Below, in pieces: positions 12,959 to 19,815 of a DNA stretch of 32,787 nucleotides. Made by a program: the position numbers and the translations under genes. A model generated the notes under the pieces. The model ran no database searches. It was not told the origin of the DNA and worked only from the letters and a program-made list of their open reading frames with translations. How positions within the stretch are numbered: the first letter of the stretch is position 1; every line of letters starts with the position of its first letter. The DNA is from an uncultured Gammaproteobacteria bacterium (GTDB taxonomy: Bacteria; Pseudomonadota; Gammaproteobacteria; Steroidobacterales; UBA11654), in assembly GCA_937801655.1 (NCBI GenBank), contig CALMWC010000018.1, forward strand, positions 1 to 32,787, written 5' to 3'.

Positions 12959-12980
12959 ATTTTCTCCTTGATACTAAAAA

Positions 12981-13052
12981 TGGAGCGGGAAACGAGATTC
13001 GAACTCGAGACTTCAACCTTGGCAAGACTAGGTTCTACTATCTCTTTACCGC
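12981..13052 (-). repeat. tRNA-Gly-like copy 1 (left boundary of module A)
   Basis: Positions 12981-13026 match the 3' half of the intact tRNA-Gly (CCA end to anticodon stem) with two mismatches in the T stem. From 13027 the sequence keeps only a faint tRNA 5'-half resemblance (TTCTACTATCTCTTTACCGCC). The sharp loss of identity at the anticodon stem is what tRNA-targeted integration leaves as a distal att site. It cannot be a working tRNA-Gly because the anticodon and D stems are disrupted. Confidence 0.85.
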
Positions 13053-13266
13053 CCTTGTAAAAATCCCCTACACTTTATCCTATAGGGTACATAGCATTAT
13101 CATTGAATATTAAATAGGCTACGTCAAGTAGCAGTGACACCATAAGTGGCACATAAATTAGCCATTAAAAAACCACCCTACTATGCGCCTTATCCCTAGA
13201 TTGTTACAAACATTGATCTATTTCTGATCTATGTCTGATCAATCATCATTTGAAATCAATAGAGTA
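13027..13266. repeat. Left-end block of module A (paired GTGNCAC half-sites and GATC iterons)
   Basis: The first ~125 bp are highly similar to 15271-15394 in module B, including AGTGACAC (13133) and AGTGGCAC (13145) with a 12-bp period. An unrelated stretch of about 60 bp follows, then a second shared block with GATC at 13215, 13226 and 13237, exactly 11 bp apart, ending in ATTTGAAATCAATAGAGTA. No gene fits here. The layout resembles arm-type and accessory-protein sites beside a recombination core (inference). Confidence 0.75.
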
Positions 13267-13302
13267 TTTTGTTTTGTGTCATACGATAGGTAAGATGTCC
13301 GT

Positions 13303-13999: not shown

Positions 14000-14110
14000 A
14001 TGAGAGCTGCAAGCTATTTGATGAATGCTCAGCTAGTAAAAGATGTAGCAGAAGATGGCTTACTAAAAGCTGGTGGATTTTCTCAAGTAAATGAAGAACC
14101 AACAGATTAA
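14000..14110 (+). CDS. 36-residue ORF, possible gene remnant
   Basis: The open frame starts ATGAGAGCTGC, 4 bp after the sulfotransferase stop, and encodes a peptide beginning MRAASYLMNAQLVKDVAEDG and ending NEEPTD. Its composition is coding-like, but there is no clear ribosome-binding site and I recognise no family. Its stop codon lies inside the leader shared by modules A and B, so it may be the tail of a gene whose front was lost when cargo was exchanged. Confidence 0.3.
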   Translation: MRAASYLMNAQLVKDVAEDGLLKAGGFSQVNEEPTD

Positions 14111-14124
14111 AAAGGAGAACTAAA
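14103..14124 (+). repeat. Shared cargo leader, copy in module A
   Basis: 22 identical bases (beginning CAGATTAAAAAGGAGAAC) also occur at 16988-17009 in module B. Both contain a strong AGGAG ribosome-binding site and both precede an exported protein. In B an ATG follows; here the corresponding codon is ATC. Confidence 0.8.
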
Positions 14125-14534
14125 TCAAAAACCTACTACTTGGCATCATTGCCATACTGTTCAGCTTTAATGGTTGGGCAGAAGATAACCTTAGAAAAAG
14201 CATCATGTTTGATGATGCAATTGTGAAAATAAAAATCCCTCAAACACTTTCCAATGAAGCCATTCTCGGAAAGAAAATTTTTGAGTCTAATTGCGTTGAA
14301 TGTCATGGTAAAAATGCAGTTGGGAAAAAAAAGATAGGGCCACCATTGATTCATAAAATTTATGAGTCCAGTCATCATAATGACTCAACATTCTATCGAG
14401 CAGTTGAAATGGGTGTTCGAGGTCATCATTGGACCTTTGGTGACATGCCGGCTATAGATGGTATAACAAGAAATGAGGTCAAAGCAGTCATTTCCTATAT
14501 TAGAGAATTGCAAAGAGAGAATAATATTTTCTAA
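14124..14534 (+). CDS. Exported class I cytochrome c with ATC at the start position
   Basis: From 14124 the frame encodes 136 residues: a signal peptide (KNLLLGIIAILFSFNGWA, cleaved before EDN), then a monohaem domain with CVECH, IGPPL and axial Met in FGDMPAIDG, ending in VKAVISYIRELQ. The first usual start, ATG 14205, would drop the whole signal peptide, which a c-type cytochrome needs for haem attachment in the periplasm. AGGAG lies 6 nt before an ATC codon, and a stop (TAA) directly precedes that ATC, so no upstream start exists. The gene is therefore start-mutated, uses AUC weakly, or contains a base error. Likely a small periplasmic electron carrier of the type seen near copper oxidases. 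Confidence 0.78.
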   Translation: MKNLLLGIIAILFSFNGWAEDNLRKSIMFDDAIVKIKIPQTLSNEAILGKKIFESNCVECHGKNAVGKKKIGPPLIHKIYESSHHNDSTFYRAVEMGVRGHHWTFGDMPAIDGITRNEVKAVISYIRELQRENNIF

Positions 14535-15172: not shown

Positions 15173-15178
15173 TGAAAG

Positions 15179-15222
15179 CCCTTTATAATAAGGCTTTCAT
15201 ACATTTGGATAACTTAAAGGAA
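15179..15222. repeat. Right-end block of module A
   Basis: 44 bp beginning CCCTTTATAATAAGGCTTTC and ending AAGGAA, joined directly to tRNA-Gly-like copy 2. About 40 positions match 17674-17719, which is joined to the intact tRNA-Gly. GAAAGCC (15174) and GGCTTTC (15193) can pair as a hairpin but lack a T run, so I do not call a terminator. Confidence 0.8.
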
Positions 15223-15294
15223 TGGAGCGGGAAACGAGATTCGAACTCGCGACCTCAACCTTGGCAAGGTCGAATTCTACTATCTCTTTTCCGC
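15223..15294 (-). repeat. tRNA-Gly-like copy 2 (junction of modules A and B)
   Basis: Positions 15223-15270 are identical to the first 48 bp of the intact tRNA-Gly complement (CCA end through the anticodon stem). The 5' half diverges abruptly after that. This copy is a hybrid: its left flank matches the intact gene's flank and its right flank matches copy 1's right flank, as expected for the junction of two tandem insertions. Confidence 0.9.
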
Positions 15295-15481
15295 CTCTGT
15301 AAAACTCCCCTACACGTTATCCTGTAAGGTTCATAGCCTTATCATTGAATATTAAAAGGGCTACGTCAAGTAGCAGTGACACGTAAAGTGACACGAAACT
15401 AAAGTGCTCTATTTGCGAGTGTTTTTTATGATCTATTTCTGATCTAAACCTGATCAATTGACATTTGAAATCAATGGAGTA
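15271..15481. repeat. Left-end block of module B
   Basis: Counterpart of 13027-13266. The shared parts are the first ~125 bp, which include AGTGACAC at 15375 and 15387, and the block with GATC at 15430, 15441 and 15452, again at exactly 11-bp intervals, ending ATTTGAAATCAATGGAGTA. The stretch between them is unrelated to module A. The stretch to 15542 also holds a 15-codon ORF (15492-15539) ending 3 bp before the next gene, which I cannot support as a gene. Confidence 0.75.
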
Positions 15482-15542
15482 GTTTTAAGGTATGAAAAAA
15501 CTAATCCTAATGTCAGCAGAAATTCAGGAGTGTACTTGAAAA

Positions 15543-17276: not shown

Positions 17277-17673
17277 AAATAAGTTATCTTCGCCTTTGTC
17301 TGCTAACCAAACCAGAACCAGTTCAGGTTCGGTACGGACATCAACTTTTGATTCCAGTGTCTACAAAGAAACTGGAATGCGAAACCTTCGATTCATCAAT
17401 AGCTAGAAAGAACCTAGACCTCCCAAAAACTAACAAACTGAGCAACCTCAGTAAACAGCTTGAGCTAACAAGCCTTGTCAGCTAATTCACAAAGGTTGGA
17501 TATACAAAAAGTATTTCCTATCTTTACTCAAATTAGTGTATTTACCAAAAAAAGGTAGAAAATCCGAAAGTGCCACGTAAAGTGGCACGTGTTTTTAATG
17601 GGTTTCAAGGGATTGGAAAAAGGTATGAACCCTACACAGTATGAAAGTCGTATGACGACCAAATCATATCAAT
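17277..17673. other. Non-coding or decayed stretch at the right of module B
   Basis: About 400 bp with no convincing gene. It holds an 8-bp perfect inverted repeat (ATTCCAGT 17351-17358, ACTGGAAT 17371-17378), the GTGCCAC/GTGGCAC motif at 17569-17589, and the small palindrome GTCGTATGACGAC at 17647-17659. An open frame through 17216-17485 overlaps the lipoprotein and looks like chance or the tail of a lost gene. Confidence 0.5.
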
Positions 17674-17719
17674 CCCTTTATAATAAAGGCTTTCAGACAT
17701 TTGAGATAACTTGAAGGAA
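17674..17719. repeat. Right-end block of module B
   Basis: 46 bp beginning CCCTTTATAATAAAGGCTTT, matching 15179-15222 at about 40 positions, and joined directly to the CCA end of the intact tRNA-Gly. It is the immediate downstream flank of the tRNA. Confidence 0.8.
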
Positions 17720-17795
17720 TGGAGCGGGAAACGAGATTCGAACTCGCGACCTCAACCTTGGCAAGGTTGCGCTCTACCAGCTGAGCTATTCCCGC
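17720..17795 (-). tRNA. glyW: tRNA-Gly (GCC), intact; integration target
   Basis: 76 nt on the minus strand with encoded CCA. Acceptor arms GCGGGAA and TTTCCCGC pair, the D arm is TAGCTCAGCTGGTAGAGC, the anticodon loop TTGCCAA gives GCC, and the T loop is GTTCGAATC. It is the only complete one of four tRNA-Gly-related sequences here. Two partial copies to the left keep its 3' half and one to the right keeps its 5' half. It corresponds by position and type to E. coli glyW behind pgsA, though here pgsA is 13.4 kb away. Confidence 0.97.
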
Positions 17796-17945
17796 TATGT
17801 ACTATTTTTATTGACTTCCACCAGTTTTACTTAATGTGATTAAGGTGATTGTTCACACTAAGGTCACAGATCAGTTAAAAACATTGAGTTGAAATCAATC
17901 GTAATTAGCTAGATGAATTATACAGGAAAGATTGGTACATAGGGA

Positions 17946-18503
17946 TTAAACGAATAACCGAGCTTCTTTAGAAAATATTTCTTCAATCATAGGTATAAAA
18001 TGTTCTAAAGATTTGGTTTCATAATTTGGATCAAATGATTTTTGATCCCATTTAGAACAAAAATCTATACAGTCTTGATAATAAGGATGATCTTTGTATT
18101 TATCTCTTAAATTTCTATCTTCATCATAATGATGCACCCAATAGTAACCTTGAAATAATCCATGATTAAGAACTATCCAATAATTCTTTTCGCTAATGTA
18201 CGGCCTTAAAAGTGCTGCAGAAACCTGAGAATGATTAGATGGCAATATGACATCGCCTATATCATGAAGCAATGCACAAACTATTGTTTCTACGTCAGCT
18301 CCATCTTTTTCAGCTCTTGTAGCAGTTTGTAGAGAATGTTGAAGCCGGCTAATTTGATATGGGGATTCTCCATCCATCATTTGAAGCCACTGAATAGCTT
18401 TTTTCAATAAACCTCTTTCATTTTCTAATTGATGGATTGCTATAAGATCGTAATCTTCCTTAGTTCCTTTATCCATTGATATAAATTCAACTTTTTTTAT
18501 CAA
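17946..18503 (-). CDS. HD-domain protein, probable mixed-valent di-iron oxygenase (PhnZ/TmpB/MIOX-like)
   Basis: 185 residues from a TTG at 18503 with GGGAG 8 nt upstream. The HD core is visible: His56 in RLQHSLQTA, the pair His80-Asp81 in ALLHDIGD, His91 in PSNHSQ, His114 in VLNHGLFQGYYW, and Asp153 or Asp158 in KWDQKSFDP. Spacings (24 residues from the first His to HD, 23 between the third and fourth His) match those I recall for the di-iron oxygenases PhnZ and MIOX, and QHSLQTA recalls MIOX. PhnZ and TmpB cleave hydroxylated phosphonates made by a partner 2-oxoglutarate oxygenase. Here the partner is the gene just upstream, 5 bp away. The PhnZ Tyr/Glu substrate pair is not conserved in position, so the substrate is open; a plain phosphohydrolase is the alternative. 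Confidence 0.72.
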   Translation of the reverse strand: MIKKVEFISMDKGTKEDYDLIAIHQLENERGLLKKAIQWLQMMDGESPYQISRLQHSLQTATRAEKDGADVETIVCALLHDIGDVILPSNHSQVSAALLRPYISEKNYWIVLNHGLFQGYYWVHHYDEDRNLRDKYKDHPYYQDCIDFCSKWDQKSFDPNYETKSLEHFIPMIEEIFSKEARLFV

Positions 18504-18508
18504 ACTAA

Positions 18509-19588
18509 TTACTCCCTTAAATTTTCATAGAGAACTAAATTATTTTCTATGTTATCCATCTCATAGTATGCATCTTGAAGATGACGCTTACCACTTGGAT
18601 TAAACTTTTCTCTTCCATGAAGAACTCTATGAGCAGAAACTAAAAGTATATGCCCTGCTTCAAGTCTAAATTTTGATTTATATTTTTCACTATTAATTCT
18701 ATTACTGAGCTCATGATAAGCCTTATAAAATAAACTCACATTTTTTTTATGAGGATCTATCATTTGCATTAATTGATTTGAGTATCTAAATCCAATAATC
18801 TCATTTGTAGTATTTAACCTAATAATTGGCTCATTTGCATAAGTCTCATTTTCTTCATCAAACTCTCTGAATGGAACTGAGAAAGTACTCAAAACATTAA
18901 AAATGTCAGGATGATCATCTTTTAAGTCTTTAAGAACTTTATACCCATCAATTATCATTGATTCTCCACCTTCGCATTCATTTATTAGCATATGAAGAGC
19001 TTGAACACTCGGTGGCCATGAATAACTGGCAAAGTCATTATGAGGTGGAACTTCTAATGATGTGTGTGCAATATTATATACATGACCATCTATAGAAACA
19101 TTATGAATACGCTCAAACAATACCTCTCTTATAGGACCTAGTCTTGGAGCAAGATCTTCTAATGAATTTGGAATGCATGGAGCATTTTTAATACATATTG
19201 CTCCTTTGATAATAAATTCAGAAATAGCACTAATAGCAATGTCATTATTCTCAAGAAAGTCATTCCAATCGTAATATTTTGGAATGAAGTTATTAGTCCA
19301 TAATTCTTTTTCAGGCTTCCTAGGTTTTTTTAATAATTCTATGTCTTTAAAGCTTATGGTTGTTTCATGGTCATCAGGCCAACATATATGAATATCATTT
19401 TCATCTATGTCTACGCTTTTAGGTTTTAAATCTACAGGAACAGAATTAAGCTTAAACCTCTTTTCAAGAGTCTCCTCTATTCTGCACTCATTGCAAGGGC
19501 AGTTATCTCTAATCCATAGATATGGTAGTTCATAGTCTAATTTTTTATTACTTATAATTAATGAGATTTCATTAAGTTGAAAATCCAT
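18509..19588 (-). CDS. Gamma-butyrobetaine hydroxylase/TmpA-like Fe(II)/2-oxoglutarate dioxygenase
   Basis: 359 residues from the ATG at 19588, which has GGGAGA 5 nt upstream; an in-frame ATG at 19600 and a TTG at 19603 are less well placed. The N-terminal DUF971-type zinc domain has Cys30, Cys32 and Cys35 (LWIRDNCPCNEC) and His74. The catalytic double-stranded helix has the iron ligands His183-x-Asp185 (VPPHNDFASYSW) and His324 (RVLHGREKF), and the 2-oxoglutarate Arg335 (GKRHLQDAYY), so it looks active. The family hydroxylates quaternary amines: gamma-butyrobetaine, trimethyllysine or, for TmpA, trimethylaminoethylphosphonate. Pairing with the HD-domain gene suggests hydroxylation followed by oxidative bond cleavage. 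Confidence 0.82.
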   Translation of the reverse strand: MDFQLNEISLIISNKKLDYELPYLWIRDNCPCNECRIEETLEKRFKLNSVPVDLKPKSVDIDENDIHICWPDDHETTISFKDIELLKKPRKPEKELWTNNFIPKYYDWNDFLENNDIAISAISEFIIKGAICIKNAPCIPNSLEDLAPRLGPIREVLFERIHNVSIDGHVYNIAHTSLEVPPHNDFASYSWPPSVQALHMLINECEGGESMIIDGYKVLKDLKDDHPDIFNVLSTFSVPFREFDEENETYANEPIIRLNTTNEIIGFRYSNQLMQMIDPHKKNVSLFYKAYHELSNRINSEKYKSKFRLEAGHILLVSAHRVLHGREKFNPSGKRHLQDAYYEMDNIENNLVLYENLRE

Positions 19589-19731
19589 TCTATCTCCCAT
19601 CAAATATTTTTTGTCATGATCACACTATGGTCACACAAGAAAATCAACAGTTCAAGGAGTATAGTCTTTCAAATGTACTGTATATATAGGCTTTATACTA
19701 TATCTATTATGTTTATAAGAGAGGACATAGT

Positions 19732-19770
19732 CTTGACAAGGTTGCACTCTACTAGCTTCGCTATTCCCGC
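19732..19770 (-). pseudogene. tRNA-Gly 5'-half relic
   Basis: 39 bp matching the intact tRNA-Gly from anticodon stem to 5' end, with substitutions (anticodon position GGC to GAC on the plus strand, D-loop CAGCTGAG to TAGCTTCG) and an exact CTATTCCCGC 5' end. The 3' half is not recognisable to the left, where only faint similarity remains. It is the mirror of copies 1 and 2, which keep the 3' half, and is best explained as the decayed original or an older tandem tRNA-Gly. Confidence 0.75.
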
Positions 19771-19815
19771 TTAAAGTAAAGAAGAATGTTTTAACCTTAG
19801 CCTTTCAATCCTTTG

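Follow-up and report, generated by a model that had tools for sequence, protein, structure and literature searches.

Three modules inserted in a tRNA-Gly gene

The window, i.e. the whole stretch of DNA analysed in the present study, is a contig of 32,787 bases; the draft genome to which it belongs measures 1.40 Mb, is 82% complete and comes from a gammaproteobacterium that is probably marine. In this window, a tRNA-Gly(GCC) gene is interrupted by a 6.7-kb insertion holding three modules, in the order displaced 3' half of the gene, module 1, second 3' half, module 2, intact tRNA gene, module 3 and displaced 5' half (Table 1). Comparison with a sister genome (L049), which shares about 90% identity with the window over long stretches, identified both the empty site and the boundaries of the insertion. 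The tRNA-Gly gene is intact in the sister genome, its 3' flank corresponds to the window sequence up to 12978, and the match on its 5' side picks up again in the window after the outer 5' half. These results indicate that the segments at 12979-13026 and 19732-19771 are the displaced halves of the original gene. As in other attachment sites, the core lies within the target gene, and a restored copy and a displaced fragment are both present.

Module 1 carries genes for a sulfotransferase, a cytochrome c and a LysE-type transporter, and module 2 has three ORFs, all of unknown family. Among the ORFs of these two modules, neither an integrase nor a recognisable phage gene was detected. The cargo of module 3, another tRNA-Gly insertion, includes an HD-domain protein beside a TauD/GBBH-like dioxygenase (17949-19603), a combination known from phosphonate degradation (PhnY/PhnZ or TmpA/TmpB type).

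Table 1. Features of the insertion and their positions in the window
Feature	Position	Strand	Remarks
Displaced original 3' half of tRNA-Gly(GCC), outer boundary of module 1	12979..13026	-	96% to tRNA 3' half; left flank equals 3' flank of the intact tRNA-Gly of L049
Left-end arm spacer, module 1	13027..13132	.	Aligned with module 2, L045 and L112 attP; TATCATTGAATATTAA invariant in 4/4
Putative arm-type integrase sites, module 1 left	13133..13152	+	AGTGACAC-CATA-AGTGGCAC; sequence comparison
GATC array, module 1	13215..13240	+	3 units at 11 bp
Decayed promoter remnant, module 1 leader	13241..13270	+	TTGACA reads TCATCA; no start codon at +40
Right-end remnant of module 1 (47 nt)	15176..15222	+	No right arm pair; 90% to last 49 nt before 17719
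tRNA-Gly 3' half copy separating modules 1 and 2	15223..15270	-	100% over 48 nt
Putative arm-type integrase sites, module 2 left	15375..15394	+	AGTGACAC-GTAA-AGTGACAC; sequence comparison
GATC array, module 2	15430..15455	+	3 units at 11 bp
Candidate -35 (TTGACA), module 2	15458..15463	+	6 bp after start of last GATC; same in L039, L112-A and L112-B
Candidate -10 (TAGTTT, 16-bp spacer) and ATG at 15492, module 2	15480..15494	+	ATG 40 bp after start of last GATC
Putative arm-type integrase sites, module 2 right	17569..17588	+	AGTGCCAC-GTAA-AGTGGCAC; sequence comparison
Right-end arm spacer, module 2	17589..17719	+	Contains IHF-like site TATCAATCCCTTT at 17667-17679 (12/13)
Intact tRNA-Gly(GCC)	17720..17795	-	ARAGORN
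Candidate arm sites, module 3	17853..17868	+	TCACACTAAGGTCACA; 1 mismatch vs copy at 19620
Candidate arm sites, module 3	19620..19635	+	TCACACTATGGTCACA; pairs with copy at 17853
Displaced original 5' half of tRNA-Gly, outer boundary of the 6.7-kb insertion	19732..19771	-	88% to tRNA 5' half; sequence beyond matches 5' side of the intact tRNA of L049

Half-site pairs and the attachment site

An earlier note on this DNA had described two half-sites with a 12-bp period at a similar distance from the tRNA half in modules 1 and 2, and both pairs were recovered: AGTGACACCATAAGTGGCAC in module 1 stands 107 bp past the end of the tRNA homology (13026), and AGTGACACGTAAAGTGACAC in module 2 stands 105 bp past the tRNA half. 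A third pair, AGTGCCACGTAAAGTGGCAC, which that note had not included, lies near the opposite end of module 2. The occurrence of the AGTGNCAC pairs in the window is beyond chance, as no such pair (at most one mismatch) was obtained in 100 shuffles and no GTGNCAC pair in 300 Markov-1 simulations of the window, and six of the eight GTGNCAC sites of the window fall in the three pairs. Outside the window, the matches of a GTGNCAC pair scan across 296 genomes of the order were scattered; one (L052, genome G067) is inside a thiolase-like coding sequence, and the others were taken as chance by count and composition. Several matches in a viral collection were likewise discarded, namely those in a T7-like phage (L079), the number of which is consistent with chance, and chance matches in coding or unrelated sequence (L113-L121) and in coding sequence for Thr-Pro repeats (L160-L162).

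The function of the half-sites is suggested by L112, a 16-kb viral contig found by scanning the viral collection with the GATC block. This contig consists of two related 8-kb satellite-like elements (A and B), each encoding a protease/major-capsid fusion, an AAA protein, an AlpA or HTH_17 protein and an integrase. The two elements are joined at near-identical capsid genes, so the contig may have been assembled from two elements with a capsid gene in common. In element B, a complete attP reads, in order, three AGTGACAC repeats, 130 bp resembling the right end of module 2, the 3' half of tRNA-Gly, 105 bp resembling the left end in module 1 and in module 2, a further two AGTGACAC repeats and the stop codon of the integrase gene; the arm sequences are AGTGACACCAAAAGTGACACCAAAGTGACACC before the right-end sequence and AGTGACACCAAGAGTGACACC after the left-end sequence. 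The repeats therefore stand on both sides of the core in L112 (7331/7343 and 7645) as well as in module 2 (15375 and 17569). When the right and left ends of module 2 were joined at the anticodon loop, the resulting sequence matched this attP end to end, with 74.6% identity over 343 columns, indicating that the AGTGNCAC half-sites are very probably arm-type integrase sites, as the earlier note had supposed.

The same layout with other repeats was observed at both ends of element A and of L039, an integrated 8-kb relative in a tRNA-Ser gene (TGCAATCA and TGCGACCA). In L039, TGCGACCAAAGTGCGACCAA occurs at both ends, with one copy directly after the integrase stop codon, and module 3 carries the matching repeat pair TCACACTAWGGTCACA at both ends. 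These observations indicate that the layout is general and that the repeat sequence varies by element. A cognate integrase gene adjoins the attP in both elements of L112 and in L039, and not in modules 1 and 2. The arm-DNA-binding domain PF14657 was detected in the integrase of L039 (E 2e-8), and integrase A also has a recognised arm-binding domain. Integrase B (369 aa, phrog_1, L112:7671-8777) shares 24% identity with integrase A; no recognised arm-binding domain was detected in it, it has HTCK where tyrosine recombinases have HxxR, placing Lys at the position of the second catalytic Arg, and its single-sequence AlphaFold model reached a pLDDT of 36. In the wider alignment that the earlier note had called for, the half-sites and the 11-bp phasing are kept in independent elements, with the single exception of element A, where the first GATC is spaced by 7 bp. 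By sequence, the case for arm sites is strong.

This arrangement is similar to that of lambda-type tyrosine integrases such as IntS of ICEMlSym R7A, in which the core is flanked on either side by short arm repeats and the whole site spans a few hundred base pairs (a 283-bp attP with five arm-type sites; PMC11963761). However, the putative arms described here persist in modules that have lost their integrase gene. No second arm-like pair was found elsewhere in module 1 (best score 10/16). As for a possible mobiliser, a search of ten genus genomes, run without a positive control, gave no integrase of the L112-B type, and relatives of integrase B were likewise not found in genome_contigs; those of integrase A were a known contig (L125, i.e. 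G006:C79) and otherwise remote integrases of at most 29% identity. A 426-aa integrase-like gene of the genome that holds the window (C3) was rejected as a mobiliser, since counterparts in all ten genus genomes make it look like a core gene.

A hairpin (GCTAC-GTCAA-GTAGC, 15360-15374) stands immediately before the left arm of module 2, and its changes in L112 and L045 preserve the pairing via G-U on the + strand only, which hints at an RNA hairpin.

The GATC array and its fixed distance to the gene start

The earlier note had also reported GATC at three positions exactly 11 bp apart in both modules, and this was reproduced (13215/13226/13237 and 15430/15441/15452), as was the observation that the spacer between the half-sites and the GATC block is unconserved, the two modules being unalignable there. 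In 300 Markov-1 simulations, a GATC triple at 11 bp never occurred, and triples at any equal spacing of 8-14 bp occurred in six. A small set of five leaders was compared (module 1, module 2, L039, L112-A and L112-B), most of which had been found via the array or the leader itself. The 11-bp phasing is present in four of the five, with three to five units, the exception being the first unit of L112-A. Within the unit, GATC varies least, and one of the five units of L039 reads GGTC.

The array is followed at fixed distances by further elements. First, RGAGTA (GGAGTA or AGAGTA) begins 24 bp after the start of the last GATC in all five leaders. Second, TTGACA, which was also seen in L038, follows at 6 bp in four of the five, that of module 1 having decayed. 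Third, the ATG follows at 40 bp in module 2, L039 and L112-B and at 41 bp in L112-A; the sulfotransferase gene of module 1 starts further downstream of the array. In contrast, the distance from the arms to the first GATC is variable (63, 36, 11 and 9 bp in four leaders), and the array of L112-B is 3.5 kb from the attachment site, between divergent genes for an alpA-like protein and endonuclease VII. The first genes behind the array are different, encoding a GIY-YIG/NUMOD3 protein, endonuclease VII or a small secreted-type protein. Since it is the gene start, and not the arms, to which the array keeps its distance, the GATC block is best interpreted as an operator array of a promoter, with a function separate from that of the arms. 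Of the two options in the earlier note, an excisionase site or a regulator site, the second is thus favoured by the locking of the array to the TTGACA hexamer and the start codon. The order TTGACA, 16 bp, TATTTT or TAGTTT, 6-7 bp and ATG would place the transcript start at the start codon; the two -10 hexamers are weak and were not reported by a generic promoter scan. Cooperative binding on one face of the DNA, also suggested in the earlier note, is plausible from the spacing.

A recurring signal-peptide start (MKKLILISALLFSFNGWA-like) fronts different small proteins at 14103-14180 in module 1, where the ATG reads ATC, and at L039:3415-3465, L038:1-100 and L112:3834-5115.

Several explanations of the repeats were considered; for the array, the operator reading is the better one. 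In a first alternative, which takes up the excisionase site proposed in the earlier note, the arms and the array form a single attachment-site complex, and the array would be bound by an excisionase of the AlpA/HTH_17 type. The array does lie 9-63 bp from the arm pair in four of five elements, that of L112-B stands beside an alpA-like gene, and winged-helix directionality factors can bind both attP and promoters, as RdfS does, BldC binding with one turn of DNA per subunit (PMC11963761). Nevertheless, we consider this proposal unlikely, as the distance that varies is that to the arms and the fixed one is that to the start codon, and as one array is remote from the att site. Moreover, elements A and B have nearly identical arrays but unrelated integrases, and their AlpA/HTH_17 proteins could not be aligned, which makes an element-specific excisionase less likely than a shared factor and suggests that the gene for the binder probably lies in the host or in a helper phage.

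A response-regulator site of the OmpR/PhoB type is about equally doubtful. Such boxes, e.g. the Pho box, are tandem 11-bp direct repeats, and the array, with CTGATCT and four A/T-rich bases every 11 bp beside the -35, resembles them, a fit that is limited to geometry. The unit differs from CTGTCAT, and a three-unit array (at most three mismatches) was found nowhere else in ten genus genomes, so that no host regulon was seen there; a pstS-based Pho-box test gave no match to the PstS family in the genus.

A further reading takes the AGTGNCAC pair as the recombination site itself, with the cargo between the direct repeats being swapped there. The locus L045, from the same chromosomal position in a sister species, could represent the emptied form, as its left and right ends are fused across a single arm pair with no cargo. 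This reading appears improbable. L045 looks like a deletion between direct repeats, and an ordinary event of that kind can explain it; the spacing of the pairs varies, L112 has three repeats on one side, and in L112 the tRNA core beside the integrase gene is flanked by repeats on either side, as in an ordinary attP. The least probable alternative is a Dam-methylation-sensitive switch, as in phase-variable promoters, which the low variability of GATC might suggest and which we regard as very unlikely, because TIGR00571 (Dam) had no match in the 82% complete draft of the same genome, PF02086 (MethyltransfD12) had none in ten genus genomes (incomplete drafts), the positive controls having worked in both searches, and one unit of L039 reads GGTC.

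Proposed origin of the modules from satellite-like elements

Herein, we propose that modules 1 and 2 are cargo-bearing derivatives, without an integrase, of small satellite-like elements that enter tRNA genes by means of a tyrosine integrase, and that the GATC array is a separate promoter operator; we consider this explanation likely. The AGTGNCAC pair would be a pair of arm-type sites bound by the N-terminal domain of the integrase, the catalytic part of which would act some 110-190 bp further on, at the tRNA core. Module 2, which has kept both arms, could be moved in trans by an integrase of the L112-B type; module 1, whose right arm is gone, is probably fixed. The array, of three to five 11-bp units, would be an operator that directly precedes a -35-like TTGACA and lies at a constant distance from the start codon of the first gene, and its factor, probably from the host or a helper phage, might bind cooperatively on one face of the DNA. 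A bolder version, which we put forward only tentatively, is that module 2 is a satellite of a satellite, i.e. an integrase-less passenger that keeps arms for the integrase of a capsid-encoding satellite and carries a shared plug-in promoter cassette for its cargo. This cassette would comprise the GATC array, TTGACA, the fixed start codon and, in some members, a conserved signal peptide, and one host or helper-phage factor would switch on whatever cargo follows.

The relatives of these modules are comparable with marine phage satellites, such as PICMI (PMC10803314) and the VEIMEs and tycheposons (named in PMC11389934). Like these, L039 and L112 are small marine integrative elements with an integrase, an AlpA-like gene, site-specific insertion and cargo. 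PICMIs are defined by int, alpA and a primase of the DUF3987/DUF5906 type, are typically located next to fis and are without a protease/major-capsid fusion, whereas L039 and L112 encode one. L039 has an integrase, an HTH_17 protein, an AAA_25 protein, a capsid protein and a tRNA-Ser site, and no PICMI-type primase was detected in it, placing it outside the PICMI definition. Tycheposons and VEIMEs are tRNA-linked, carry a tyrosine recombinase and cargo, and occur in virus-like fractions; of these traits, tRNA linkage and an integrase are found in the relatives. L112 comes from a viral collection, and modules 1 and 2 are without a recombinase. Compared with marine phage satellites, even the integrase is missing from these two modules. 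In this respect they resemble CALINs and MITEs, the integrase- or transposase-less derivatives that are moved in trans (reviewed in PMC11389934), being non-autonomous, having kept their recombination sites and being possible substrates of a helper's enzyme. However, in place of attC sites or terminal inverted repeats, a complete attP of a tyrosine integrase is found here, with its arms, at a tRNA gene. Satellites that integrate at tRNA genes, with attP arms and non-autonomous derivatives, are already known; what is new is that orphan cargo modules with two arms occur together with a phased promoter cassette shared between elements.

The repeat pattern of the window thereby resolves into two testable parts, the attachment arms and core of a satellite and a proposed promoter cassette common to elements whose integrases are unrelated. 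If cargo is indeed moved by the integrase of another element and expressed from a common signal, this would provide a concrete route of gene turnover at tRNA genes in streamlined marine bacteria. The arm sequences also offer a means of matching orphan modules to their mobilisers in metagenomes.

Additional observations were made in these elements. The protease/major-capsid fusion (L039:3891-5636 and L112:5383-7101) stands alone in the 8-kb tRNA elements, no terminase or portal being recognised among the ORFs examined. A non-coding block of 113 bp is 100% identical between 17301-17420, a contig end of the same genome (L042:7-119) and a different species (L039:3638-3750), suggesting recent spread or a repeat at which the assembly was broken. 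Finally, a second conserved intergenic leader, CCAACCTTTGTGAAT...TTGTTAGC...GGGAGG...AGGTATG, occurs at 17418-17500 (reverse) and in L037, L043 and L044, and stands before different small ORFs in the sister genomes.
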